A DNA stretch of 64,000 nucleotides from Gluconacetobacter sacchari. GTDB lineage: Bacteria > Pseudomonadota > Alphaproteobacteria > Acetobacterales > Acetobacteraceae. A program made the translations under genes and the position numbers. Location of the stretch: assembly GCF_014174255.1 (NCBI RefSeq), contig NZ_JABEQJ010000001.1, positions 186,001 to 250,000 of the forward strand. The letters run 5' to 3'. The notes beneath the pieces are model-generated. The model made no database searches, had not been told where the DNA came from, and saw nothing but the letters and a program-made list of their open reading frames with translations. Below are positions 3,108-24,218 of this stretch, piece by piece. Numbering within the stretch: the stretch's first letter is position 1; every line of letters starts with the position of its first letter.

Positions 3108-4703
3108 TCAGCCGAACTGCCCCATCGTGTTATGCGCGCCGCCGGCCTTCAGCGCCGCCTCGCCGGCGAAATATTCCTTGTGGTCGTCGCCGATATCCGA
3201 CCCGGCCATGTTCTGGTGCTTGACGCAGGCGATCCCCTGGCGGATCTCCTCGCGCTGGACGTTCTGCACATAGCCCAGCATCCCTTCCTCGCCGAAATAC
3301 CGCTTGGAGAGACTGTCGGTCGACAGCGCCGCCGTATGATAGGTCGGCAGCGTGATCAGATGGTGGAAGATGCCGGCCCGCTTCGACGCGTCCCGCTGGA
3401 AGGTGCGGATGCGCGCGTCGGCTTCCTTCGCCAGATCGGTCTCGTCATAGCTCTGCGCCATCAGCTTCGCGCGGTCATAGGCCGCGACGTCGCGCCCGCC
3501 TTCCTTCCACGCATCATAGACCTGCTGGCGGAAATTGAGCGTCCAGTTGAAGGACGGCGAGTTGTTGTAGACCAGCTTTGCATTCGGCACGGCCTCGCGG
3601 ATACGGTCCATCATGCCGGCGATCTGCTCGATATGCGGCTTTTCGGTTTCGATCCACAGCAGGTCGGCACCGTTTTCCAGCGCGGTGATGCAATCCAGCA
3701 CGCAGCGATCGGCCCCCGTGCCGGGGCGGAACTGATACAGGTTGCTGGGCAGCCGCTTGGGGCGCAGCAGCTTGCCGTCGCGGGCGATGATCACGTCGCC
3801 ATTGCGCACGGTGCCGTCGGTCACCTCCTCGCAATCCAGATAGGCGTTGTACTGGTCGCCCAGATCACCGGGTTCGCTGCTATAGGCGATCTGCTTGGTC
3901 AGGCCCGCGCCCAGGCTGTCGGTGCGGCAGACGATCACGCCGTCTTCCACGCCCAGTTCGAGGAAAGCGTAGCGCACGGCGCGCACCTTCGCCAGGAAGT
4001 CCTCGTGCGGCACCGTCACCTTGCCATCCTGGTGGCCGCACTGCTTTTCGTCCGACACCTGGTTTTCGATCTGGATGGCGCAGGCACCGGCCTCGATCAT
4101 CTTCTTCGACAGCAGATAGGTTGCCTCGGCATTGCCGAAACCCGCGTCGATATCGGCGATGATCGGCACGATATGGGTCTCGTGACTGTCGATCTTCGCC
4201 TGGATTTCGGCCTGGCGCGCGCCGTCGCCCGCTTCGCGCGCGGCATCGAGGTCGCGGAACAGCATCCCCAGTTCGCGCGCATCGGCCTGGCGCAGGAAGG
4301 TATAGATCTCCTCGATCAGCGCCGGAACGGCCGTCTTCTCATGCATCGACTGGTCGGGCAGCGGCCCGAATTCCGAGCGCAGCGCCGCCACCATCCAGCC
4401 CGACAGGTACAGGTAGCGGCCCTTGAGCGACCCGAAATGCTTCTTCACCGAGATCATCTGCTGCTGCGCGATGAAACCGTGCCAGGCCCCCAGCGACTGG
4501 GTGTACTGCGCCGGATCGGCATCATAGGCGGCCATGTCCTGGCGCATGATGGCGGCCGTGTAGCGCGCGATGTCCAGCCCGGTCTGGAACCGGTTCTGCA
4601 AGCGCATGCGCACGACATAGTCGGGATTGATCCCGCCCCAGGTGCCCTGCTTGGCCTCGATGATCTGGTTGAGCTTGGCGGTTGCCGATTCCTGATATGA
4701 CAT
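3108..4703 (-). CDS. aceA: Isocitrate lyase
   Basis: This is a 531-residue isocitrate lyase, cleaving isocitrate to succinate and glyoxylate, the first step of the glyoxylate shunt used on acetate or other C2 substrates. The catalytic signature is present as SDEKQCGHQDGK with the active Cys, preceded by PIIADIDAGFGN (Mg binding) and followed by VCRTDSLGA and WIETEKP. The length and the extended N- and C-termini match the 531-residue Pseudomonas-type subfamily rather than the about 430-residue E. coli enzyme. Malate synthase is not in the window. The gene is monocistronic, with a terminator at 3017-3050 and a dyad at 4802-4816 upstream. Confidence 0.96.
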   Translation of the reverse strand: MSYQESATAKLNQIIEAKQGTWGGINPDYVVRMRLQNRFQTGLDIARYTAAIMRQDMAAYDADPAQYTQSLGAWHGFIAQQQMISVKKHFGSLKGRYLYLSGWMVAALRSEFGPLPDQSMHEKTAVPALIEEIYTFLRQADARELGMLFRDLDAAREAGDGARQAEIQAKIDSHETHIVPIIADIDAGFGNAEATYLLSKKMIEAGACAIQIENQVSDEKQCGHQDGKVTVPHEDFLAKVRAVRYAFLELGVEDGVIVCRTDSLGAGLTKQIAYSSEPGDLGDQYNAYLDCEEVTDGTVRNGDVIIARDGKLLRPKRLPSNLYQFRPGTGADRCVLDCITALENGADLLWIETEKPHIEQIAGMMDRIREAVPNAKLVYNNSPSFNWTLNFRQQVYDAWKEGGRDVAAYDRAKLMAQSYDETDLAKEADARIRTFQRDASKRAGIFHHLITLPTYHTAALSTDSLSKRYFGEEGMLGYVQNVQREEIRQGIACVKHQNMAGSDIGDDHKEYFAGEAALKAGGAHNTMGQFG

Positions 4704-10164: not shown

Positions 10165-12684
10165 ATGTATCCCCCCTCGTCCCAACCGTTCCCGCCCCGG
10201 CGCCTGGCCAGGATGCTGGTCGTGATGACCGTCCTCGCCGGCCTGCCGCCGGCCGCCGCCGACGCCGCGACACCGGCCGCCATCACCGTGCATCTGCCCG
10301 CCCAGCCCCTGGCCGACTCCCTCGAAGACCTGTCCCGGATCAGCGGGCGGGACATCCTGTTCGCCAGCGGCGTCATCGGCAACCGCCGCGCCCCCGCGCT
10401 GGACGGCACGCTGGGCGTCGAGGAGGCGGCATCCCGCCTGCTGCGCGGCAGCGGACTGCGCACCGTGCGGCAGCATGACGGCGGACTGCTGATCGAAGAC
10501 CCGACCGATGCCACCCCCCACCCGGCCGCATCCACCCACGCCACGCGGCACGACGCCGAGGACATCACGGTGATCCGGCGCGCCGAGCGCCTGGCCCCGT
10601 CGACCGTGCCGCTGACGATCACCGAGCCGACATCCGTGATCCAGAAGCGCTTCATCGCGAACAACATCATCCCGCTGGCCAGCGTGGACGACATCATCAA
10701 GTTCCAGCCCAGCATCTGGTCGCAGAACCCCAACGGGCCGGGCATCGGCAAGGCCGAGACGATCAGCCTGCGCGGCTTCCAGGACGGCCAGTACAACATG
10801 ACGTTCGACGGCATCCCGTTCGGCGATGCGTCGGACCTGCATCACACCACTTCCTCCCTTTTCATCTCGCATTTTCTCGACCAGGTGCAGGTCGATCGCG
10901 GCCCGGGCACGGCATCGACCCTGGGCAACGCGACCTTCGGCGGCACGATCGGCTTCGATTCCCGGGCGCCGGCCAAACATTTCGGCGTCACGCCCTACGG
11001 CACCTACGGCAGCTTCAACACCCGCGCCGGCGGCATCGAGATCGACAGCGGCAAGACCGGCTTCGGCGCCATGGTGCTGGACATGCAGCACGAGGAAACC
11101 GACGGCTACCTGACCGGATCGGCGGAACGGCGCAGCAACCTGCTGTTCAAGGACGTGCTGGACCTGGGCGCGCACACGACGCTGACGCTGCTGACCACCT
11201 ACGACAAGGAATGGCAATATACCACCCAGGGCGCGACGCTGGCGGATTACGCGAAATATGGCGACAATTACGGGCTGTGCTTCAACCGCGCGCTGCAATG
11301 CTATTACGGCTACAACCCCAGCACCTACCAGTCCGACTTCAGCTACGTGAATCTCAAGACCCGCTTCACGCCCTGGCTGACATTCGAAAACAAGCTCTAC
11401 ACCGACGGCTTCGTGCATGATTACACCGAATCGACCGACGCCAGCCAGAACGACCCGTCCGCCAACGGCGTGACCTTCTATTCCGCCACCGGCAGGAAGC
11501 TGGCGACCGACCGCACCGACGTTCCGGGGAAATATGCCCGCGCCGCCTTCCGCGATTACGGCGACACCATGAAATTCCGGGCCAGGACCCCGGTCGGCGA
11601 CGTGCTGCTGGGCGTGTGGGCCGACGTGCAGGACGACCGGCGCTACACCTACGCCATCGATCTCAGCCGGAACGGCATCCCGGTCCCCGGCAAGACCGGC
11701 ACCGCGTTCAACTATGATATTTCCGACCTCAACACGACCGTCCAGCCCTATCTGGAATTCGACTGGCACCCGCTGCGCGGCATGACGATCAAGCCCGGCA
11801 TCAAATATTCCTATTTCCACCGCGACTACGACGCGTCGATCAACAAGACGACGAAGCAGCCGCTGAACACCCGGCAGACCTTCACCTCCTGGCAGCCCTC
11901 GATCGCGCTCAACCAGATCATCCTGCCGGGCTGGAGCGCCTACGGCCAGATCGCGCGCGGCTTCCTCGCCCCGCCGATGAGCGTGTTCCAGACCCAGGAT
12001 GTCGGCAACGTCCAACCGGAAACCACGCTGAACTACCAGGTCGGCACGGTACTCCAGAAAAAGCGCTGGACCCTCTCGGCCGACGCTTATTACATCGATT
12101 TCTCCAATTACATCGCCTCGGCCCGGATCAACGTGCCCGGCATCGGCATGGAAAGCACCTCGGTCAACAGCAGCGGCGCCATCTACAAGGGCCTGGAGAT
12201 CGAAGGACAATACGCGATCGGCGCCGGCGTCTCGCTCTACGGCAATTACAGCGTGAACGACGCCCAGTACAAACATACCCGCATCCGCGTGGCGGAAACC
12301 CCCAACGTGCTGGCCTCGTTCGGCCTGCTGTATGACAACGGCACGGGCCCCTATTTCTCGCTGATCGGCAAGTTCGTCGGCAATCACTGGGGGCTGGACA
12401 GCACCACCGACAGCGCCGGCCACACCGTCTTCGCCAACCAGTATCGCGTCGGCAGCACCACGACCGCCGACCTGGCACTGGGCTGGCATTTCCGCCACCT
12501 GGCCGGTTTCATGAGCGACCTGACCCCCAGCCTCAAGATCGCCAACCTGTTCGGCAGCCACGCGATCAGCGATTTCGCCGGCAACCAGTCGGCGGCCAGC
12601 AAGGGCTATCCCGACGGCGCGCCGCTCTACTGGCGCCTGTCCGGCCGCAGCGTATTCTTCAACCTGTCGATGACCCTGCCATGA
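10165..12684 (+). CDS. TonB-dependent receptor with N-terminal signalling (STN) domain
   Basis: This is an 839-residue outer-membrane receptor. A signal peptide ends near ADAA. An STN domain follows (about residues 38-108, ITVHLPAQPLADSLEDLSRISGRDILF), as expected for a transducer that signals to FecR. The plug is at about 135-270 (RGFQDGQYNMTFDGIPFGD, VQVDRGPGTASTLGNATFGGTIGF), and the barrel ends in SVFFNLSMTLP. The barrel resembles receptors for ferric complexes. The ligand is unknown, but the stop codon overlaps the start of a secreted histidine acid phosphatase by 4 bp. An organic phosphate such as phytate, or its iron complex, is therefore an attractive candidate substrate. It forms one unit with the FecI/FecR genes. 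Confidence 0.9.
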   Translation: MYPPSSQPFPPRRLARMLVVMTVLAGLPPAAADAATPAAITVHLPAQPLADSLEDLSRISGRDILFASGVIGNRRAPALDGTLGVEEAASRLLRGSGLRTVRQHDGGLLIEDPTDATPHPAASTHATRHDAEDITVIRRAERLAPSTVPLTITEPTSVIQKRFIANNIIPLASVDDIIKFQPSIWSQNPNGPGIGKAETISLRGFQDGQYNMTFDGIPFGDASDLHHTTSSLFISHFLDQVQVDRGPGTASTLGNATFGGTIGFDSRAPAKHFGVTPYGTYGSFNTRAGGIEIDSGKTGFGAMVLDMQHEETDGYLTGSAERRSNLLFKDVLDLGAHTTLTLLTTYDKEWQYTTQGATLADYAKYGDNYGLCFNRALQCYYGYNPSTYQSDFSYVNLKTRFTPWLTFENKLYTDGFVHDYTESTDASQNDPSANGVTFYSATGRKLATDRTDVPGKYARAAFRDYGDTMKFRARTPVGDVLLGVWADVQDDRRYTYAIDLSRNGIPVPGKTGTAFNYDISDLNTTVQPYLEFDWHPLRGMTIKPGIKYSYFHRDYDASINKTTKQPLNTRQTFTSWQPSIALNQIILPGWSAYGQIARGFLAPPMSVFQTQDVGNVQPETTLNYQVGTVLQKKRWTLSADAYYIDFSNYIASARINVPGIGMESTSVNSSGAIYKGLEIEGQYAIGAGVSLYGNYSVNDAQYKHTRIRVAETPNVLASFGLLYDNGTGPYFSLIGKFVGNHWGLDSTTDSAGHTVFANQYRVGSTTTADLALGWHFRHLAGFMSDLTPSLKIANLFGSHAISDFAGNQSAASKGYPDGAPLYWRLSGRSVFFNLSMTLP

Positions 12685-13979
12685 TCCCCCACCAAACATA
12701 CGCCCGCTGGCGTCTCCTCGGCGCCGCCCTGATGCTCGCCGCGACATGTGGCGGCGGCGCCAGGGCCGCCACGCCCGGCCCCGCCGCCCTCGCCGGCGCG
12801 ACGCTGGAAAAGCTCGTACTGGTCTCCCGCCACGGCATCCGCAGCCCGACGACGGCGCCGGAGGGGCTGAAGGCCCTGACCGGCCGCGACTGGCCGGCCT
12901 GGCCGGTACCGCCCGGGCAGTTGACCCCGCACGGGCGCGCGGCGCTGGCCGGCATGGCGGAGGCGCTGGGCGCGCGCTACCGGCGGCTGGGGCTCCTGCC
13001 CGCAACCGGCTGCCCCGCCCCCGGCACGGTCGCGATCTGGGCCGACGCCGCCGACGACCGCACGCGCCAGAGCGGCGCCATCATGGCCGCCAGCCTCGCC
13101 CCCCGATGCGGCCTGGCCGCCCACTCCCTGGCGGCCGGCCAGGCGGACCCGTTCTTCAACGCCCTGGCCGCCGGCGCCGCGACCCTGGACCAGCCCCGCG
13201 TCACCGAGGCGCTGGGGCAGGCCATCACCCGGGACCGCGCCCAGCGGCCGCCCCCGGTCCGCGACGCGCTGGCCCGGCTCCAGGCCCTGGTCGCCCCCGA
13301 TGGCTGCGCGCGGCCGGACGGCCCATGCCTGACGGGCGGGTTGTCCCTGTCCTGGCGGCCCCTGTCCTGGCGGCACGGGGCGCCGCACCTGAAGGGCGGC
13401 CCGGTCCAGGCCGCCACGATCGCGGAAAACATGATGCTGGCCTACAGCCAGGGCATGAGCCCGCGACAGGTCGCCTGGGGCGCGCCGGACGACGCGGCCC
13501 TGCTCGCGACGATCCTGCCGGCGCATGCCTATGCCGCGATGCTGACCCGCCGCCTGCCCGCCATCGCGCTGCCACGCGGGTCGGTCCTGTCCCGCGCCGT
13601 CATCGACCTGCTGGCGGGCCGCCCGGTCACCCTCCCCGACCACGGCACGATCGGCCCGGCCGCGCGGCTGGTCCTGTTCGCCGGCCACGACACGACCCTG
13701 GACATGCTGGCGACGATCTTCGGCCTGGACTGGCATTTCGCCGACCAGCCCGACCCGACCGCACCCGATACGACCCTGGCCTTCGAACGCTGGCACCTCG
13801 GGGATGGCAGCCGCGCGGTGCGTGTGGTCGTCCTGCATCAGGGGCTGGAACAGCTCCGCTCGGCCCGACGGCCGGACCTGCTGGGCCCGAACGCCACGGA
13901 ACTGCCGATCGGCACCTGCGCCGGCGCGACCCTCTGCCCGCTCGAGCGCCTGCACCCCGCCACCCTGCCTCCGGCCTGA
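12681..13979 (+). CDS. Secreted histidine acid phosphatase (phytase / glucose-1-phosphatase family)
   Basis: This 432-residue protein has a signal peptide ending near GARAA. The active-site motif is LVSRHGIRSPT (His nucleophile, about residue 54), and the proton-donor motif is AGHDTTLDM (about 335). The length matches AppA/Agp-type periplasmic histidine acid phosphatases, which release phosphate from phytate or sugar phosphates. A cluster of Cys (CPAP, CGLA, CARPDGPCL, CAGATLCP) suggests disulphides, fitting export. ATG overlaps the receptor stop (ATGA), so phosphatase and TonB receptor are made together. A role in processing the imported ligand at the cell surface is inferred from this context. 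Confidence 0.87.
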   Translation: MIPHQTYARWRLLGAALMLAATCGGGARAATPGPAALAGATLEKLVLVSRHGIRSPTTAPEGLKALTGRDWPAWPVPPGQLTPHGRAALAGMAEALGARYRRLGLLPATGCPAPGTVAIWADAADDRTRQSGAIMAASLAPRCGLAAHSLAAGQADPFFNALAAGAATLDQPRVTEALGQAITRDRAQRPPPVRDALARLQALVAPDGCARPDGPCLTGGLSLSWRPLSWRHGAPHLKGGPVQAATIAENMMLAYSQGMSPRQVAWGAPDDAALLATILPAHAYAAMLTRRLPAIALPRGSVLSRAVIDLLAGRPVTLPDHGTIGPAARLVLFAGHDTTLDMLATIFGLDWHFADQPDPTAPDTTLAFERWHLGDGSRAVRVVVLHQGLEQLRSARRPDLLGPNATELPIGTCAGATLCPLERLHPATLPPA

Positions 13980-16566: not shown

Positions 16567-18861
16567 TCACAACCGCCGGTCGAGCAGCGCGACCAGCGGC
16601 ACATCCGCTTCCGTCGGCTCCGGCCGGCCGTAGAGATACCCCTGCACCTCCTGGCACCCTTCCGCGCGCACCAGGGAAAGCTGCGCCTCGGTCTCGACCC
16701 CTTCGGCGACGATCCGCACCCCCAGCCGCTTGCCCAGGCCGGCGATGGCCCCGACCACGGCGGCGCATTCCGGCCGCGCCAGCGCATCGCGCACGAACGA
16801 GCCGTCGATCTTGATCTTGTCGAACGCGAAGGTGCGCAGATGCGCCAGCGACGAATAGCCGGTCCCGAAATCGTCCAGCGACACCCGCACCCCCATCTCG
16901 CGCAGCGACAGCAGATCCTGGATGCCGCGATGCTCGTCGCGCAGCAGCGCGGTTTCCGTGACCTCGATCTCCAGCCGCTCCGCCGGCAGGCCGGAATCCG
17001 CCAGCGCCGCCGCGACGGCATCCACCAGCGTTCCCTTGCCCAGTTGCAGCGCCGACACGTTGACGGCGACATGCGCCCCGTCCGTCCAGCGCGCGGCGCT
17101 CCGGCAGGCCTGGTCCAGGATAAACGCGCCCAGCCGGTCGATCAGGCCGCATTGCTCGGCCACCGGCACGAACCGGGCGGGCGAAATCCAGCCATGCCGG
17201 GGGTGATGCCAGCGCGCCAGCGCCTCGCGGGCAGCCACGCGGCCGGACTGGAGGTTGACGATCGGCTGGTAGAACACGAACAACCCATCCCGGCTCGCCA
17301 GCACCGACCGAAGCGCGTCTTCCAGGCGCACGCGCTCCTGCACGCGCCCTTCCAGTTCCGCCGAGAATATCAGCGCCGCTCCCCGGCCCGCCTCCTTGGC
17401 GGCATGCAGCGCCATGTCGGCGCGGGCCAGCAGGATATCCGGCACCCCGCCATGCTCCGGCGCCAGCGCGATGCCGACCGACGCCCCGATCTGGATCGTC
17501 CCCGCATCCTCCAGGTCGAAGGGCGTCCCCAGCGCCGTCACGACCAGGTCTGCCTGCAACTGGGCCTGCGGGCGGCAATCATGGGGCAGCAGCACGGCGA
17601 ACTCATCCCCTTCCAGGCGCGTGACCGTCACGGCGGGGCCGTTGCACACTCTTTTCAGCCGCGCGGTCACCTGCCGGAGCAGCGCGTCGCCGATCTGGTG
17701 CCCCCGCGTGTCGTTGACCAGCTTGAACCCGTCCAGATCGACATACAGCAATCCGGCGCGATTGCCCGGCGAGGCCAGGCGGTCTTCAAGCTCCCGGCGC
17801 AAGGTCACCCGATTGGGCAGGCCGGTCAGCGCGTCGTAATGCGCCAGATGCCGGATACGGTTTTCCGCCTCGGCCTCCTTCGTCACCAGCGCCCAGGTCA
17901 GCATGGGCGCCATGTAATGGCCGTCCTTGGCGATGATGGCGGAAATCTTCAGGTCCAGCACCTCGCCGCCCAGCCGGATGCGCGCATTGTGCGGCAGGTT
18001 GCGCGGATCGGCCAGGATCCTGCGCTGGTGCCCCGGCGAACGGTGGAACACATCGATCGAGGTGCCGATCAGGTCGTCGGCCCGGATCGGCAGGAGATGC
18101 TCGATATTGCGGATCAGCGTCTTGGACATCCGGTTGGCGTAGTTGATGACGCAGGTCCGCGGTTCCACCGTCATGACCGCCACGGGCATGTCGTCGATCA
18201 TCCGCAGCAGCAGTTCCTGCTCCTTCGTCCGCCGCACCTCCTCGGCACGGGCATTCACGGTTTGCGAAAAATCGCGGGAGGTATCGGTCAGCACGCCGAT
18301 CCCCCCCGCCGAGGCAGCCAGCAGGCTCAGCGCGGCGGCGAGATCGAACGGCGTCGCGCCGACCAGGCACAGGGCCAGAAGCGTCGCATTGCCGACGGCC
18401 GCCAGCCCGATCGCCGCCCCCCGCAGATGCACCAGGCACTGCATGGCCGACAGCGTTGTGGTCGCGACGGAGAGGAACAGGAACGAACGCGTCGCCTCGT
18501 CGCCACGGCCATAAAGGGCGAATGTCCACGCGGACTGGGCAATGACCAGCCCGACGACAAGGCGGCCGGTATTGGCCAGCGCCGCCTGGGCCCGTGCCGG
18601 CGTCGGCTCGCGCCGGCGCGCCCGAAGCCAGGATCGCATCCGGACGGCGCAGAACACGCTGGCCGCCGCCGGATAGCCGATCGAAAGCCAGCCGGGCGCC
18701 TGCCGGGCAAAGATGGCGGCCAGCAGCCACATATTGACCAGCAGCACGGCATACATCATCGGCAGATGCTGGGCGCAGCGGCGATACCGTGCCACGGCCA
18801 GCTCGGCGCTCCCCGCCGCCGAAAACCAGCCTTCGCGGCCGAAGGGCCAATGGAGGGTCAT
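16567..18861 (-). CDS. Membrane GGDEF-EAL protein with PAS domain
   Basis: This is a 764-residue c-di-GMP protein. The N-terminal 220 residues carry several hydrophobic segments. A PAS-like domain (about 245-340, DMPVAVMTVEPRTCVINYANRMSKTL) comes next, then GGDEF (about 360-510) with the motif read as EGDEF (TRLEGDEFAVLL), then EAL (about 520-764). The EAL domain keeps its catalytic set: EALARW, NVSAL, EVTE, DDFGTGYSS, KIKID, AEGVE and QGYL, so phosphodiesterase activity is likely. The first Gly of GGDEF is Glu, so cyclase activity is uncertain. It overlaps the upstream MHYT protein by 4 bp, indicating coupled expression. Confidence 0.9.
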   Translation of the reverse strand: MTLHWPFGREGWFSAAGSAELAVARYRRCAQHLPMMYAVLLVNMWLLAAIFARQAPGWLSIGYPAAASVFCAVRMRSWLRARRREPTPARAQAALANTGRLVVGLVIAQSAWTFALYGRGDEATRSFLFLSVATTTLSAMQCLVHLRGAAIGLAAVGNATLLALCLVGATPFDLAAALSLLAASAGGIGVLTDTSRDFSQTVNARAEEVRRTKEQELLLRMIDDMPVAVMTVEPRTCVINYANRMSKTLIRNIEHLLPIRADDLIGTSIDVFHRSPGHQRRILADPRNLPHNARIRLGGEVLDLKISAIIAKDGHYMAPMLTWALVTKEAEAENRIRHLAHYDALTGLPNRVTLRRELEDRLASPGNRAGLLYVDLDGFKLVNDTRGHQIGDALLRQVTARLKRVCNGPAVTVTRLEGDEFAVLLPHDCRPQAQLQADLVVTALGTPFDLEDAGTIQIGASVGIALAPEHGGVPDILLARADMALHAAKEAGRGAALIFSAELEGRVQERVRLEDALRSVLASRDGLFVFYQPIVNLQSGRVAAREALARWHHPRHGWISPARFVPVAEQCGLIDRLGAFILDQACRSAARWTDGAHVAVNVSALQLGKGTLVDAVAAALADSGLPAERLEIEVTETALLRDEHRGIQDLLSLREMGVRVSLDDFGTGYSSLAHLRTFAFDKIKIDGSFVRDALARPECAAVVGAIAGLGKRLGVRIVAEGVETEAQLSLVRAEGCQEVQGYLYGRPEPTEADVPLVALLDRRL

Positions 18862-20900
18862 GCCTCGGACGCCACCCGCGCGATCTGCCCCCTGCGGATG
18901 ATGTCGTCGATCGTGACCGGATGCCCCAGCAGGAACCCCTGCGCTTCCTGGCAGCCTTCGGCATTCAGCATCGAAAGCTGGTCGTAGGTCTCGATACCCT
19001 CGGCCGTCACCGGAATGCCGAAGCTCCTCCCCAGGGCCAGGACCGCCCGGATAATGGCCATGGTCTGGGCCGTGGCGGCCTGGGAACAGAAAAAGGACCG
19101 GTCGATCTTGATCCTGTCGAACGTGAAGGACCGCAGCGTATCCAGCGACGAATAGCCGGTGCCGAAATCATCCAGGGCGATGCTCACCCCCAGGTCCCTG
19201 ATCTGGCGCAGCATCTCCAGCGACCGTTCGCGATCGGCGAAGATGGTCGATTCCGTCAGCTCCAGCTCCAGCCGCGCCGGGGCCAGCCCGGTCTCGGCCA
19301 GAACCGTCCGGATCACCTCCGGCAGATCCGCGATGACGAACTGCACGGCGGAAAGATTGACCGCGATGGTATAAGGCGGCTCCCATGTCGCGGCTTCCCG
19401 GCAGGCGGTGCGCAGCACCCACTCGCCGATCGGGACGATCAGCCCGTTCTCCTCGGCCAGCGGAATGAAGTCTCCGGGCGGAATCTCGCCCATCTTCGGA
19501 TGCGTCCAGCGCAGCAGGGCCTCGTAGCCCCGGATACGCCCGGTCGATACGATGGTCTGGACCTGGTAATGCAGCGTCAACTGGTTCCGGCCGATCGCAT
19601 CGCGCAGGTCGGCCGCCAGCGCGCGCCGTTCCCGGTTCCGCTCGTCCATGCCGGCTTCATAGAAGCAGACGCGCTGCAAGGGGTTCGATTTCGCGCGATA
19701 CATCGCGAGGTCCGCGCCGTTGACCAGGTTTTCCCTGTCGGCGGCATCGTCGGGAAAGACCGCGACCCCCAGGCTGCCGCCGGGCGAGATGTCCAGGTCG
19801 TCGGCCCTGATCGGGGCGGAAAGGGCCTTGACGATCCGGTCGACGAAGCCCGCCACGTCGTCCGGCGCGCCGACGCGGCAGATCGCGGCGAATTCGTCGC
19901 CGCCGGTCCGGGCGATGAATTCGCCGCGTTCGTCCCGTACCAGGGCGTTCATGCGGCGCCCCAGCACGCGCAGCACCTCGTCGCCGACCGAATGCCCCCG
20001 CAGATCGTTGATATCCTTGAACCGGTCGAGATCGATCCCGATCAGCGCCAGCCTGCTCCCGCGCTGCTCCGCCCGGACGATTTCGGAATCCAGCCGGTCG
20101 TTGAAATGCGCCCGGTTCGGCAGCCCGGTCAGCACGTCGCTCAACGCCATGCGCCGCAGGCGCTCGATCGTCTCGGCCCGGGCACTGTCGTCGATCAGAT
20201 AGCTGACCATGCCCATCACGAGAATGATCAGGCTCATGCCGATCACGGCCATGGTCAGGGTCTTCAGGGCGAGGGCATGGCCGGGCGCCATGGTCTCGCC
20301 GGTTCCGACGACATGAAAGGCCGCCATGCCGACGAAATGCACGCACACGATGGCGGCCGCGAACAGCGCCGCCATGGCATTGGCCCCCACGCCCGTCCGC
20401 TTCAGCGCCATGTGCAGGGCCGCCATGGCCAGGACGGGCCCGAGCAGGCCCGACACGATCACATGGGGCATGTCCCAGGCGACCCGGCCGTGAGCGTGAA
20501 AGGCCGCCATGCCGACATAATGCATGGCAACGATCGAACAGCCGAGCAGCACGCCCCCCGTCACGGCCGGCCAGCGAATGACGCTGCTGCCGGTGGCGAC
20601 AAAGCCCAATATGCTCCCGCCGACGCAGATGAACAGCGAAGTCAAGGTCAGAAGCGGGTCGAACGTGACACCCGTCCCCGCGCGGAAGCCCATCATCGCG
20701 ATGAAATGCGTACACCAGATCGCAACGCCGGCCGCCAGGGCCGTGAGCACATACCATCCGCCGCGCTGCAACCCCCGGGTATGCAACGCCCGGCGGAACA
20801 GTCGCGCCGTCACCCATGCGCCCACACAGCAAAGCGCCGCGGCGATCAGGACGATCCGAAGATCATGCCCATGAACGATGCAGACGAATAACGCGCTCAC
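18858..20900 (-). CDS. MHYT-GGDEF-EAL sensory protein
   Basis: This is a 680-residue protein. The first 245 residues form seven membrane helices holding three MHYT-type motifs (WCTHFIAMMGF, AMHYVGMAAFH, CVHFVGMAAFH). These are proposed to bind copper or another metal and sense O2, CO or NO. The GGDEF domain (about 265-415) has an intact TGGDEFAAI. The EAL domain (about 425-680) has YEALLRW, NLSAVQF, ELTEST, DDFGTGYSSL, RIKIDRS, AEGIE and QGFL. Both making and breaking of c-di-GMP are possible. It is the first gene of a two-gene unit with the overlapping GGDEF-EAL gene downstream. In acetic acid bacteria c-di-GMP controls cellulose and other exopolysaccharide. Confidence 0.92.
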   Translation of the reverse strand: MSALFVCIVHGHDLRIVLIAAALCCVGAWVTARLFRRALHTRGLQRGGWYVLTALAAGVAIWCTHFIAMMGFRAGTGVTFDPLLTLTSLFICVGGSILGFVATGSSVIRWPAVTGGVLLGCSIVAMHYVGMAAFHAHGRVAWDMPHVIVSGLLGPVLAMAALHMALKRTGVGANAMAALFAAAIVCVHFVGMAAFHVVGTGETMAPGHALALKTLTMAVIGMSLIILVMGMVSYLIDDSARAETIERLRRMALSDVLTGLPNRAHFNDRLDSEIVRAEQRGSRLALIGIDLDRFKDINDLRGHSVGDEVLRVLGRRMNALVRDERGEFIARTGGDEFAAICRVGAPDDVAGFVDRIVKALSAPIRADDLDISPGGSLGVAVFPDDAADRENLVNGADLAMYRAKSNPLQRVCFYEAGMDERNRERRALAADLRDAIGRNQLTLHYQVQTIVSTGRIRGYEALLRWTHPKMGEIPPGDFIPLAEENGLIVPIGEWVLRTACREAATWEPPYTIAVNLSAVQFVIADLPEVIRTVLAETGLAPARLELELTESTIFADRERSLEMLRQIRDLGVSIALDDFGTGYSSLDTLRSFTFDRIKIDRSFFCSQAATAQTMAIIRAVLALGRSFGIPVTAEGIETYDQLSMLNAEGCQEAQGFLLGHPVTIDDIIRRGQIARVASEA

Positions 20901-20960: not shown

Positions 20961-21005
20961 AAAAATCCTTCAAGACCTGATCGGGCACCGCGCCGGTGCC
21001 CGATC
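20957..21005 (-). terminator. Probable terminator of the globin-coupled sensor gene
   Basis: A perfect 12-bp stem (GATCGGGCACCG / CGGTGCCCGATC, 20979-21005, 3-nt loop) lies 33 bp past the stop of the minus-strand gene. A run of seven T on that strand follows, about 12 nt after the stem. The gap before the T run makes it a non-ideal terminator. Confidence 0.55.
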
Positions 21006-21037
21006 ATGCGTATCCGCGCCATCGCTCGCAGGACGCG

Positions 21038-22576
21038 TCACCGGCCTCTCTCCGGCCTGGCGGCGGGTCGCGCCGCCAGGCCCAGTTCGAACGTGGCCAG
21101 CAGGCCGTTGAGATGGGCGGCCTCCCCGGCCATGCGCGCGCTGGCGGCGGAGGCCTGCTCGGCCATCGCCGCGTTCTGCCGTGTTCCCCGGTCGATTTGC
21201 GTCACCGCGCCGTTGATCTCATGCAGCGTCGCGGCCTGCTCCTGCGACGCCACGGCGATCGCCTCGAGATGCCGCCCGATCTCCCTGACGCTGGCGATCA
21301 GGGCACTCGTGGCGGCATTCGCCTCGTTCATCACCGCGACGCCGCCGGCAACCTGCCGCCCCGACGTGCCGACCAGCTCGCGGACATCCTTCGAGGCCGC
21401 GCCGGCCCGCGTGGCCAGGTCGCGGATCTCCTGCGCCAGGATCTTGAAGCTGTTCCCCGCCTCCCCGGCCCGGGCGGCCTCGACGGCGGTATTCAGGGCA
21501 AGCAGGCTGGTGCGGGTGGCGATGCCTTCCATGACGTCGATGATCCGGCCGATCGCCTCGGACGACCGCGCGATTTCAGCCATCGACGCCGTCGCGCGCG
21601 CGACCATCGCGCCGAACCGTTCGGCGATGACCTGGCATTCCTTGACGAAATTCTCCGCCTCCGCGGCGCGCGCGGCGGCCGACGAAACGATGCCGGCGAT
21701 CTGTTCGACGGCGGACGCGGTCTTTTCCACCGAAGCCGCCTGCGTCTCGGTGCGCCCGGCCAGATCCCGGATCGCGGTGCTGATCTCGTCCGCCCCCATG
21801 TCGATCTGTTGGGTCGCGTCTCCCACCGTTCCCAATATGTCGCGCAGCGAAACGATGGCGGTATTGAGGTTCTCGCGCAGCGGGCCATAGGCCGAGGGCA
21901 ATTCATCGCCCATCGTGGCCGACAGGTCCCGGTCCGCGATCCGGCCGATGGTCGTGCCGAAGCGCTCCGAGACCAGATGCCGTTCCGCCCTGATCGCCTC
22001 GGCCCGGTCCGCCTGCCGCCGCCGCTCGGCCTCGTCCAGATAGACCGAGATGGTCAGGTCCATCTCCAGCAGGACGATCTTGCACAGGCTTCCGACGATT
22101 TGCGCCATTCGTTCCGGCGACATCGGGTCTTTCTTCAGCCACCTGCGCCGCCGTGGCAGCAATTCCACCATGACCGCATGGATGAGCCGGTCCAGGACGA
22201 TGGCATATCCACCGATATACCATCGCGGCTCCAGCCCGATCCGGGCATGGACCACCCCGATCCGGGCGACCCGCGCGGCATAATCCGCATCGAGTTCGGC
22301 GCCGGAGACATGTTTCCAATGGTCCTGCTGGGCATGCCGCGCCCGCGCGATGACCGTCTCGGACGAAAAGAATCCAAGCGTGTCACCCGTGGCACGAATC
22401 CGGTCGTAGAACCGGTCGAGCGCGCCGGGCAAGGCCCGGTCGATAATCTCCCGCACGGAGCGGACGGCCTGGCAGTTCTCGTCGGTCAGGCGCATGAAAT
22501 CGCGCCGGCGGCCCAGGTCCGCCAGGTCGGCCGCGCGCTGGCCGGCATCGGCGGAGGAGTGCGATCCAGTCTTCAT
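21038..22576 (-). CDS. Globin-coupled methyl-accepting sensor protein
   Basis: This is a soluble protein of about 512 residues. An N-terminal protoglobin domain (about 15-185) has the proximal-His motif GVVHARIGLEPRWYIGGY typical of globin-coupled sensors. A linker helix and a methyl-accepting signalling domain (about 240-512) follow, with IDVMEGIATRTSLLALNTAVEAARAGEAG as the conserved hairpin tip. It lacks membrane segments, so it senses oxygen through haem in the cytoplasm (HemAT-like aerotaxis) or works as a Che-type signal input. The start at 22576 is chosen because homologues begin close to it; the frame is open upstream to 22735 but looks non-protein there. It is near two c-di-GMP proteins but in a separate unit. 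Confidence 0.9.
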   Translation of the reverse strand: MKTGSHSSADAGQRAADLADLGRRRDFMRLTDENCQAVRSVREIIDRALPGALDRFYDRIRATGDTLGFFSSETVIARARHAQQDHWKHVSGAELDADYAARVARIGVVHARIGLEPRWYIGGYAIVLDRLIHAVMVELLPRRRRWLKKDPMSPERMAQIVGSLCKIVLLEMDLTISVYLDEAERRRQADRAEAIRAERHLVSERFGTTIGRIADRDLSATMGDELPSAYGPLRENLNTAIVSLRDILGTVGDATQQIDMGADEISTAIRDLAGRTETQAASVEKTASAVEQIAGIVSSAAARAAEAENFVKECQVIAERFGAMVARATASMAEIARSSEAIGRIIDVMEGIATRTSLLALNTAVEAARAGEAGNSFKILAQEIRDLATRAGAASKDVRELVGTSGRQVAGGVAVMNEANAATSALIASVREIGRHLEAIAVASQEQAATLHEINGAVTQIDRGTRQNAAMAEQASAASARMAGEAAHLNGLLATFELGLAARPAARPERGR

Positions 22577-22670
22577 GATGGGCGATATTCCCAGGCAATC
22601 GGCCGCCATTGACGCGCGAAGCAAGGCGGCGTGGATAAGGCGGGCGGATTCATGGGCGTTCCGCCTCCCG

Positions 22671-23315
22671 TCAATGGGAGGACAGGCTGGCCGAAGCGGA
22701 AGCGGGGATCCGTGTCGGGTCGGGTTTCCAGACAAGCGTCACGCTCTCCCCCGCATCGGGGAGCACCGTCATGGAACGGGAACGACCGTCTCCGTCCTTC
22801 GACAAAAAAAAGAACGCGCCACCATGCACCTGGATATAGAATATATCTGATGCGGAATCACAATCCGAAGTAAAAACATAAATAAAACATTTATTTGTAT
22901 ACTCGTCGCATTCAATACGTACCCGGAAAATCTTTTTCAATACGATTTTCAGATAAAAATCATGCTCCTCGTCCGGTATGATATTAAGAAAAGCAATAGA
23001 GCCCGAGAAATTCATGAAATCGACAGTAAGACAATCGCACAATCGCCTGATCCAGATATTGGCGCACCCCTGATATCCCGCATCGTCGGACAGGATGTCC
23101 ATCGATCCGCCATCCAGCACGATTCGGCACATGTTTTCCAAAACGAGCTGCCAGATCCGGACCGTCAGATGCACGCCGCGACCGACCGCGAGCACCGCCT
23201 CGTCCGGTTCGCCCGCCCCACATGGCGGCGGAATTATTTTATCAATGATATCAGGTCCATATCGACCAGAAAGCAGCAGAACCTCATACTCCGGCGACAG
23301 GTCGGCACCCGGCAC
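22671..23315 (-). CDS. Unrecognised 214-residue protein beside a recombinase
   Basis: No family is recognised. The frame starts with GTG at 23315 and codes for a Cys-containing (nine Cys), acidic protein. Its middle (about residues 90-170) is rich in I, F, Y, D and N and is coded by DNA with lower GC than the neighbours. Codon use there looks foreign to this genome. There is no signal peptide or clear membrane segment. A 20-bp dyad lies 8-27 bp before the start codon, one of two inverted copies near the serine recombinase gene, so its expression may be switched or repressed by that protein. A non-coding alternative cannot be excluded, but the long open frame in an AT-richer region argues for a gene. 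Confidence 0.5.
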   Translation of the reverse strand: MPGADLSPEYEVLLLSGRYGPDIIDKIIPPPCGAGEPDEAVLAVGRGVHLTVRIWQLVLENMCRIVLDGGSMDILSDDAGYQGCANIWIRRLCDCLTVDFMNFSGSIAFLNIIPDEEHDFYLKIVLKKIFRVRIECDEYTNKCFIYVFTSDCDSASDIFYIQVHGGAFFFLSKDGDGRSRSMTVLPDAGESVTLVWKPDPTRIPASASASLSSH

Positions 23316-23322
23316 AGGAGTC

Positions 23323-23342
23323 TCAAAAGGTGTAACTTTTGA
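23323..23342. repeat. Dyad site I (inverted-repeat left copy)
   Basis: The sequence TCAAAAG-GTGTAA-CTTTTGA is a perfect 7+6+7 dyad. Its core AAGGTGTAACTTTTG (23327-23341) recurs in inverted orientation at 23473-23487 with all 15 bases identical. The size and dyad form suit a serine-recombinase dimer site. Confidence 0.7.
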
Positions 23343-23471
23343 TTAAGAAACATCTAAATCCGGGTAGAAGTTCCCATCCAGGTATCATACGGTTCGATCT
23401 GACGAAAATAAAGAAAATGTTGGACATTATGCTGAATTTATCAAGAATAAATAGAGGCATTAGAAGAGATG
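23343..23471. other. Candidate invertible segment between sites I and II
   Basis: This stretch of about 130 AT-rich bases lies between the two inverted dyads and upstream of the recombinase gene. No gene fits in it. A weak rightward promoter can be drawn (TTGGAC at 23420-23425, 17-bp gap, AAGAAT at 23443-23448). A leftward -10 (TATGAT, 23389-23384 on the minus strand) also faces the 214-residue gene. Inversion would swap which side each promoter faces. The sequence alone does not show that inversion occurs. Confidence 0.4.
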
Positions 23472-23491
23472 GCAAAAGTTACACCTTATGC
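23472..23491. repeat. Dyad site II (inverted-repeat right copy)
   Basis: The sequence GCAAAAG-TTACAC-CTTATGC is a 7+6+7 dyad with one mismatched pair. Fifteen bases (23473-23487) are the exact reverse complement of 23327-23341 in site I. Confidence 0.7.
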
Positions 23492-23556
23492 AACACATTT
23501 ATGTGAGAATAGAACTCGGTGCGAAATCTCCAATCGCGTCTTTTTTTATAAATTTT

Positions 23557-23576
23557 TCAAAAGGTCGTGACTCTGA
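23557..23576. repeat. Partial third copy of the dyad at the recombinase start
   Basis: Nine bases, TCAAAAGGT, equal the left arm of site I. The final TGA also matches, giving 13 of 20 identical in the same orientation. It overlaps the ribosome-binding region of the recombinase gene, so it could serve for autoregulation. Confidence 0.45.
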
Positions 23577-23578
23577 AC

Positions 23579-24187
23579 ATGATTATTGGATATGCGCGTG
23601 TCAGCAGCGAAGACCAGAACCTCGCGGTGCAGATACAGGCCCTGCAACAGGCCGGTTGCGCCATGATCTTCAAGGAAAAACTCTCGGGCGCGTCCACCCG
23701 GCGCCCCGCGCTGCAACGCCTGCTCCGTACGGCCGGCCATGACGACATCATCGTCGTCATGCGCCTGGACCGGCTGGCGCGCTCCACGCGCGACCTGCTC
23801 GACATCGTGGAAAAGCTGAAGCAGAACGGGGCAGGATTCAAATCGATCCAGGAACCGTGGGCGGATACGACGTCGCCCGCCGGCCGCCTGATCCTCACCA
23901 TTTTCGCGGGCATCGCGGAATTCGACCGTGCCCTGATCCGCGACCGGACGGCGGCCGGACGAAAGCTCGCGCGCGAACGCGGCGTCCATATGGGCCGCCC
24001 GCGCAAATTGTCGAATGCCCAGATCACCGCGATCCAGGCCATGATGCGCAACAAGACGGCCGATGCGCGCCATGTCGCCCACACTTACAAGATCCACCGC
24101 AGCACGGTCTATCGCATCGTCAACGCCGCGCGCGGCGGCGCGGACTATCTCGAACAGGCACGCCCCGCGCGACCGGCGGAGGCCTGA
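23579..24187 (+). CDS. Serine recombinase (resolvase/DNA-invertase family)
   Basis: This 202-residue protein starts MIIGYARVSSEDQNL, with Ser9 as the predicted nucleophile. The catalytic domain includes ALQQAGC, FKEKLSGASTRRPAL, IVVMRLDRLARSTRDLL and a long E helix (AGRLILTIFAGIAEFDRALIRDRTAAGR). The C-terminal helix-turn-helix is ADARHVAHTYKIHRSTVYRIV. Length and domains match Pin/Hin invertases and Tn3-type resolvases. No transposase is nearby, so it is not part of an intact transposon here. The inverted dyads at 23323 and 23472 and the partial one at 23557 are likely its binding sites. A GTG at 23567 is an alternative start. It converges on the FUSC gene with a 31-bp gap. Confidence 0.92.
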   Translation: MIIGYARVSSEDQNLAVQIQALQQAGCAMIFKEKLSGASTRRPALQRLLRTAGHDDIIVVMRLDRLARSTRDLLDIVEKLKQNGAGFKSIQEPWADTTSPAGRLILTIFAGIAEFDRALIRDRTAAGRKLARERGVHMGRPRKLSNAQITAIQAMMRNKTADARHVAHTYKIHRSTVYRIVNAARGGADYLEQARPARPAEA

Positions 24188-24218
24188 GCGGGCGCGCGCC
24201 ACGGCAACGCCACGGTCC

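Follow-up and report, generated by a model that had tools for sequence, protein, structure and literature searches.

A probable DNA-inversion switch formed by inverted dyads and a small serine recombinase in Gluconacetobacter sacchari

The invertible segments of the Hin, Gin and Pin systems are about 1 kb long or more. Serine recombinases that invert promoters are already known, and so is an invertible segment placed before a c-di-GMP gene. Two papers on Mpi (PMC4747536, PMC5903667) describe a serine recombinase of Bacteroides fragilis that inverts polysaccharide promoters at 13 regions of the genome. In Clostridioides difficile, the pdcB switch is presented in PMC9286219 as an invertible segment that lies upstream of a c-di-GMP phosphodiesterase and changes its expression, and the sections of that paper dealing with the switch do not identify the recombinase; an invertible segment before a c-di-GMP gene in this species also figures in parts of PMC11868660. 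The locus that we describe here lies in a stretch of 64,000 nucleotides of the G. sacchari genome (the window) and resembles each of these systems in part. Like Hin, Gin and Pin, it combines an enzyme of that size and domain content with inverted dyads that have a short asymmetric center, and the closest solved chain is a DNA invertase (4m6f, E 1e-34, followed by gamma-delta resolvase, 9.5e-31); unlike them, it has a segment of only about 0.15 kb, with the recombinase gene outside. With Mpi, our proposal shares a serine recombinase and short promoter segments bounded by inverted repeats, but here one recombinase stands beside one pair of sites instead of acting on 13 regions genome-wide. As in the cited account of pdcB, the segment lies upstream of a signaling gene, whereas here a serine recombinase is adjacent and the targets would be a divergent gene without a known family (the left gene) and a protoglobin receptor. 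We consider it probable that the locus is a switch which controls the leftward genes by inversion, and we give this reading a probability of about 0.68. Its features are collected in Table 1.

Table 1. Features of the switch-like locus and its surroundings, with positions counted in the window.
Feature	Position	Strand	Remark	Basis
MHYT-GGDEF-EAL gene	18858-20900	-	conserved host gene adjoining the insertion	Pfam; present in five congeners without the insertion
Insertion, approximate extent	20995-24190		contains receptor, left gene, sites and recombinase	flanking genes adjacent in five congeners
Protoglobin and methyl-accepting chemotaxis signaling protein (receptor)	21038-22594	-		Pfam Protoglobin 1.9e-37, MCPsignal 2.7e-33
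Left gene, 214 aa	22671-23315	-	divergent; predicted switch target; first possible start GTG, 7 bp from left dyad	ORF
Left dyad TCAAAAGGTGTAACTTTTGA	23323-23342	+	predicted recombination site; outer half is TCAAAAGGTG	sequence and pair statistics
Segment between dyad centers, 149 bp	23333-23481		predicted to invert	analogy with Acetobacter segments found in both orientations
Right dyad GCAAAAGTTACACCTTATGC	23472-23491	-	predicted recombination site, inverted relative to left dyad	sequence and pair statistics
Third copy of the 9-base half site TCAAAAGGT	23557-23565	+	just 5' of recombinase start	by eye and pattern listing
Small serine recombinase, 202 aa	23579-24187	+	active-site residues present	Pfam Resolvase, HTH_7; residue check

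A repeat search of the window returned the dyads as arms of 18 nt, 94% complementary and 131 nt apart. They share a core of 15 identical bases in inverted orientation (23327-23341 and 23473-23487), exactly where a preliminary description of this DNA had placed it. That description had also regarded each site as a dyad in itself and, by eye, 8 of 10 positions indeed pair in the left dyad and 7 of 10 in the right one. The pair is far beyond chance expectation. When the 320-bp region was shuffled 20000 times, 4 of the shuffled sequences contained an exact 14-mer inverted repeat, the inverted match of the dyads (17 of 20 bases) was equalled in none of 400 shuffles, and no inverted pair with the window score and a spacing of 70-200 bp appeared in 200 shuffles. 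Moreover, the 14-bp core is present in the window as two perfect copies, with nothing else at three mismatches or fewer, and a search of the 4.83-Mb genome at up to two mismatches returned these copies and one site with a single mismatch. The DNA between the dyads is about 65% A+T. The neighboring recombinase frame is intact (Pfam Resolvase 1.3e-42, plus HTH_7) and its product retains the active-site Ser and Arg residues, which places it among the small serine recombinases and agrees with the invertase-size enzyme proposed earlier from the letters. The locus thus presents the two inverted sites beside a recombinase gene that characterize a serine-recombinase inversion switch.

A search of genome contigs yielded no close relatives of this recombinase. 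In the matches listed for 397 genomes of the family, identity peaked at 55%. On plasmids, the best identity was that of a Komagataeibacter oboediens match, 64.6% across 73% of the protein. In a 75-row tree the enzyme falls within a clade (96/83) with Komagataeibacter proteins and plasmid resolvases, without singling out its exact sister. The NCBIfam model for Mpi (NF009949) scored 48.6 bits against a cut-off of 272, and therefore the enzyme is no member of the Mpi family. Plasmid or transposon resolvases are numerous among relatives of comparable identity and a third half site precedes the gene, so that one might take the dyads for a res (resolution) site on which a resolvase of the transposon or plasmid type acts. 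We attach hardly any weight to this explanation. The genome holds a single copy of the core pair, placed between conserved neighbor genes, which leaves no second res partner; most resolvase relatives tested are devoid of such a pair, as 17 of 89 upstream regions (the window, two Komagataeibacter and 14 Acetobacter loci) had one that was reached in 0 of 200 shuffles; and the list of open reading frames, read by eye, contains no transposase nearby, as had been stated before. The additional half-site copy TCAAAAGGT is also compatible with a possible autoregulation of the recombinase.

If the locus is a switch, the recombinase would bind both dyads and pair them, cut the dyad centers and rejoin the ends, so that about 149 bp would be turned round. 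The segment would carry the promoter of the leftward genes, and its inversion would switch the left gene and, if the two are co-transcribed, the protoglobin receptor. The receptor gene is the next one leftward and is probably co-transcribed with the left gene; its start is uncertain, its ORF extending to 22735. Several observations lead us to this reading: the dyad pair is beyond chance and unique in the genome, the active site is intact, a sister family of like layout inverts, and the Komagataeibacter loci that we call class 1 keep the dyads. The reading is weakened because only one orientation of this locus is known and because the sister clade is separate (about 50% identical) with unrelated site letters. 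The one-way segments of Komagataeibacter, the weak pairs of its class 2 loci and the lack of an above-chance promoter weaken it further.

The sister family forms a separate clade (100/100) of recombinases that are 47-50% identical to the window enzyme, and was found in 17 of 49 Acetobacter genomes at E 1e-55 or better. Its loci (such as L158 and L182-L186) share the layout of the window, with a divergent gene, a first site (TTTGCGCAAATCAGG, inverted), a short A+T-rich segment of about 110 bp, the second of the inverted sites and the small serine recombinase. They differ from it in their recombinase clade, in their Hint-domain targets and in their site letters, which are unrelated to the window dyads. 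We processed 32 loci of this family, two of which had no recombinase start and 20 of which gave a measured segment. Among these 20 segments there are 16 BLAST-similar pairs, eight in the same and eight in the opposite orientation. The cleanest pair is carried by plasmids of A. oryzoeni B6 (L185) and A. pomorum SH (L186), which have both flanks and the recombinase WP_116100443.1 in common, while the segment is 99.1% identical but inverted. Turning the segment round raises the identity from 174 to 259 of 260 positions, and the breakpoints (15 co-optimal pairs, 8 printed) are consecutive positions inside the shared site. Four other pairs gain in the same way, from 150 to 230, 151 to 220, 123 to 183 and 150 to 224. 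In L158 and L170, a 114-bp segment is identical but inverted, the sequences run collinear with 100% identity for 740 bp toward the recombinase, and the left flanks are unlike each other. Opposite orientations come from different strains and species, none having been seen within a single strain at one locus. The inverted segments span 111-114 bp, which answers the earlier worry that the window segment might be too short. By analogy with these loci, we infer that the window copy inverts as well.

In three of these loci (L182, L185 and L186) the annotated start of the left gene is 10 bp from CCTGATTTGC, the equivalent distance in the window being 7 bp. The left gene is annotated as a Hint-domain protein in L182, L183, L185 and L186 and as an outer membrane protein in L184, and Pfam Hint_2 matches every left gene of the sister family that was tested (L082, L184, L185). 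The source genome itself carries a member of this family (L002), whose site pair was reached by 1 of 200 shuffles. At the second switch-like locus of this genome, besides that of the window (L083, G000:C15:6000-20000, recombinase at 12306-12848), the left gene encodes an autotransporter strand-loop-strand O-heptosyltransferase (TIGR04414, 600 bits) and is followed by a Hint_2 protein gene. On a plasmid of A. oryzoeni B6 (L187, about 3950-4150), two divergent recombinase genes flank a single palindromic site with no segment, as if the segment had been lost. In L170 (G425:C94), recombinase genes about 71% identical stand on both sides of the segment, one per strand, and the left flanks of such loci therefore seem exchangeable.

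The nearest recombinases are those of Komagataeibacter, where the gene is divergent from a left gene of about 220 aa with weak similarity to that of the window. Unlike the window, these loci have two PAS-GGDEF-EAL genes (shown for L107/L077) instead of the protoglobin receptor and show one orientation only; the two genes lie downstream of the left gene in K. diospyri, and other loci are alike by eye. A search with the left-gene profile brought matches in 18 of the 19 Komagataeibacter genomes, and several of these matches have no recombinase nearby. In class 1 (L094, L107, L121), the inverted pairs match at 16, 18 and 16 of 20 bases, equalled by 1, 0 and 3 of 400 shuffles respectively, and in all three loci the dyads lie at about -250 and -95, close to the distances in the window. 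K. melomenusus (L123/L085) has a fourth left gene of class 1, and no recombinase starts within 800 bp of it. Pairs are weaker in the five intact class 2 loci, where 12-14 of 20 bases match and between 18 and 204 of 400 shuffles did as well. In two class 2 loci devoid of the catalytic serine and in nine class 3 loci the match is 11-12 of 20, a level that 121 to 291 of 400 shuffles attained. The catalytic Ser is replaced by Asn and Arg71 by Trp in eight class 3 proteins, two class 2 proteins carry Gly in place of Ser, and the N-terminal part of the class 3 copy L108 is not intact. We had considered that loss of the serine goes together with loss of the site pair; this idea is weakened, since three of the five intact class 2 pairs are also at chance level in the ungapped test, although outer half sites are visible.

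Alignments show a uniform segment direction in class 1 (3 of 3) and in class 2 (five intact and two serine-less loci). This speaks against frequent inversion in Komagataeibacter, or for a preferred orientation in the sequenced cultures. The comparison of spacer orientation suggested in the preliminary description gave both directions in Acetobacter, but a single one in the eight intact Komagataeibacter loci; neither of two plasmid queries brought up near-identical Komagataeibacter loci with which to compare the orientation. Ten further loci are without the catalytic serine or without a site pair, and consequently part of the group does something else. The dyads could thus be operators, to which a recombinase-derived protein would bind, perhaps looping the 149 bp, in order to regulate the divergent genes without recombination. 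Such a role would suit the ten Komagataeibacter proteins that have no catalytic Ser and are still encoded upstream of like genes, the open frame and HTH region kept by eight class 3 proteins, and the one-way segments of the intact loci. For the window, however, we hold it to be unlikely: the enzyme has its active site, the sister family inverts, and the window pair is very strong whereas the dead loci tested (2 of class 2, 9 of class 3) show no above-chance pair.

The locus belongs to an insertion that sits between the MHYT-GGDEF-EAL gene and a FUSC gene. These two genes are direct neighbors, with no extra genes, in five congeners (G001, G002, G006, G008, G009), and tblastn over 12-17 kb of each found no receptor, left gene or recombinase at that place; the window therefore contains an insertion of about 3.2 kb. 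The region differs in the more distant congeners G004, G005 and G011, the last of which has a protoglobin relative nearby (41%). A search for terminal repeats of the insertion found nothing longer than a chance-like 8-mer. As the insertion is found in one genome only and a second orientation is not known, the element might be a formerly working switch that is now locked in one orientation. We judge this to be very improbable, because the recombinase frame and both sites are intact. The sequence upstream of the MHYT-GGDEF-EAL gene is common to congeners without the insertion, and we therefore make no claim that the switch controls this gene. Just past the receptor gene and near the left end of the insertion (20977-21003), a perfect 12-bp inverted repeat, GATCGGGCACCG / CGGTGCCCGATC, is visible by eye and is a possible terminator.

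Twelve of the 14 genomes in the genus, that of the source included, carry protoglobin relatives. Twelve of their loci were inspected (10 further matches lay outside this set), and the 11 other than that of the window have, by eye, neither the left gene nor the recombinase in the upstream stretch covered. The window left gene matches no Pfam or NCBIfam family and has no match in plasmids, and among 299 genomes of the family it finds only itself. Its match to the Komagataeibacter left gene is weak, with E 2.8e-4 in a one-sequence HMM search and E 0.0086 at a probability of 4.7% with hhalign. AlphaFold2 models of the two proteins (pLDDT 80.4 and 77.7) have a similar order of strands and helices, a structural likeness that is not independent since both models were built on largely one alignment. 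A common ancestry of the two left genes is plausible, short of proof. Foldseek gave no match at E 0.001 or better for either model, and the best VIA-align hit of the Komagataeibacter model was a yeast adhesin-like wall protein domain at Z 7.5, in a range rated uninformative.

Only 7 bp lie between the left dyad and the first start codon available to the left gene, and its promoter must therefore be in the segment or farther toward the recombinase. A scan of 23200-23620 gave two promoter-like matches against 0.8 expected, one of them, right-facing, inside the segment, and the window segment scored no better than shuffles (p 0.54 rightward, 0.23 leftward). Scans of the window region and of two Acetobacter loci, together with the scoring of 12 segments, were likewise never clearly above shuffles, the lowest p being 0.08. 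The possible promoters in both directions of the preliminary description are thus unsupported by either the scan or the scoring. From the switch proposed there, the inverted dyads as recombination sites are supported by the Acetobacter inversions and the Komagataeibacter dyads, but the two-way promoters are not.

A broader interpretation, which we regard as rather doubtful, is that acetic acid bacteria harbor a large unrecognized family of self-contained switch cassettes, some Komagataeibacter copies of which became fixed regulators. Such a cassette would consist of a small serine recombinase, inverted dyads and an invertible segment of 0.11-0.15 kb. Its targets would be Hint-domain surface-type proteins in Acetobacter, c-di-GMP operons in Komagataeibacter and an oxygen-sensor-like receptor in the source genome. 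In some Komagataeibacter copies, the catalytic serine and the site pair would have been lost and the dead recombinase would have become a DNA-binding regulator of c-di-GMP genes. If this were true, surface and signaling genes of acetic acid bacteria would be under a heritable on/off switch, and a defined DNA segment would be at hand to assay the heterogeneity of cultures of vinegar and cellulose producers; the serine-less paralogues would illustrate how a DNA-rearranging enzyme turns into a regulator. One abstract (PMC13068021) speaks of cellulose production being lost in culture, and we claim no link between this and the switch. By title and abstract opening, none of the open-licence papers listed on acetic acid bacteria deals with such switches in them, and the main text of PMC6528568, which compares Komagataeibacter genomes and covers cdg operons, does not use the words 'recombinase' or 'inversion'.

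Eight of the Komagataeibacter loci (L096-L099, L116, L126, L127, L129) encode recombinase-like proteins with an open frame and HTH, Asn for Ser and Trp for Arg71. They stand beside c-di-GMP-type left genes, and their products are possible regulators made from a dead recombinase. At G309:C3:588105-590051 (L095, L115), the left gene is apparently interrupted: the profile hits it as two parts separated by about 1.3 kb. Finally, a palindrome GGAATATATTCC lies within the segment in all five intact class 2 loci (L091, L092, L093, L122, L115), and the two serine-less class 2 loci carry GGAATTTATTCC.
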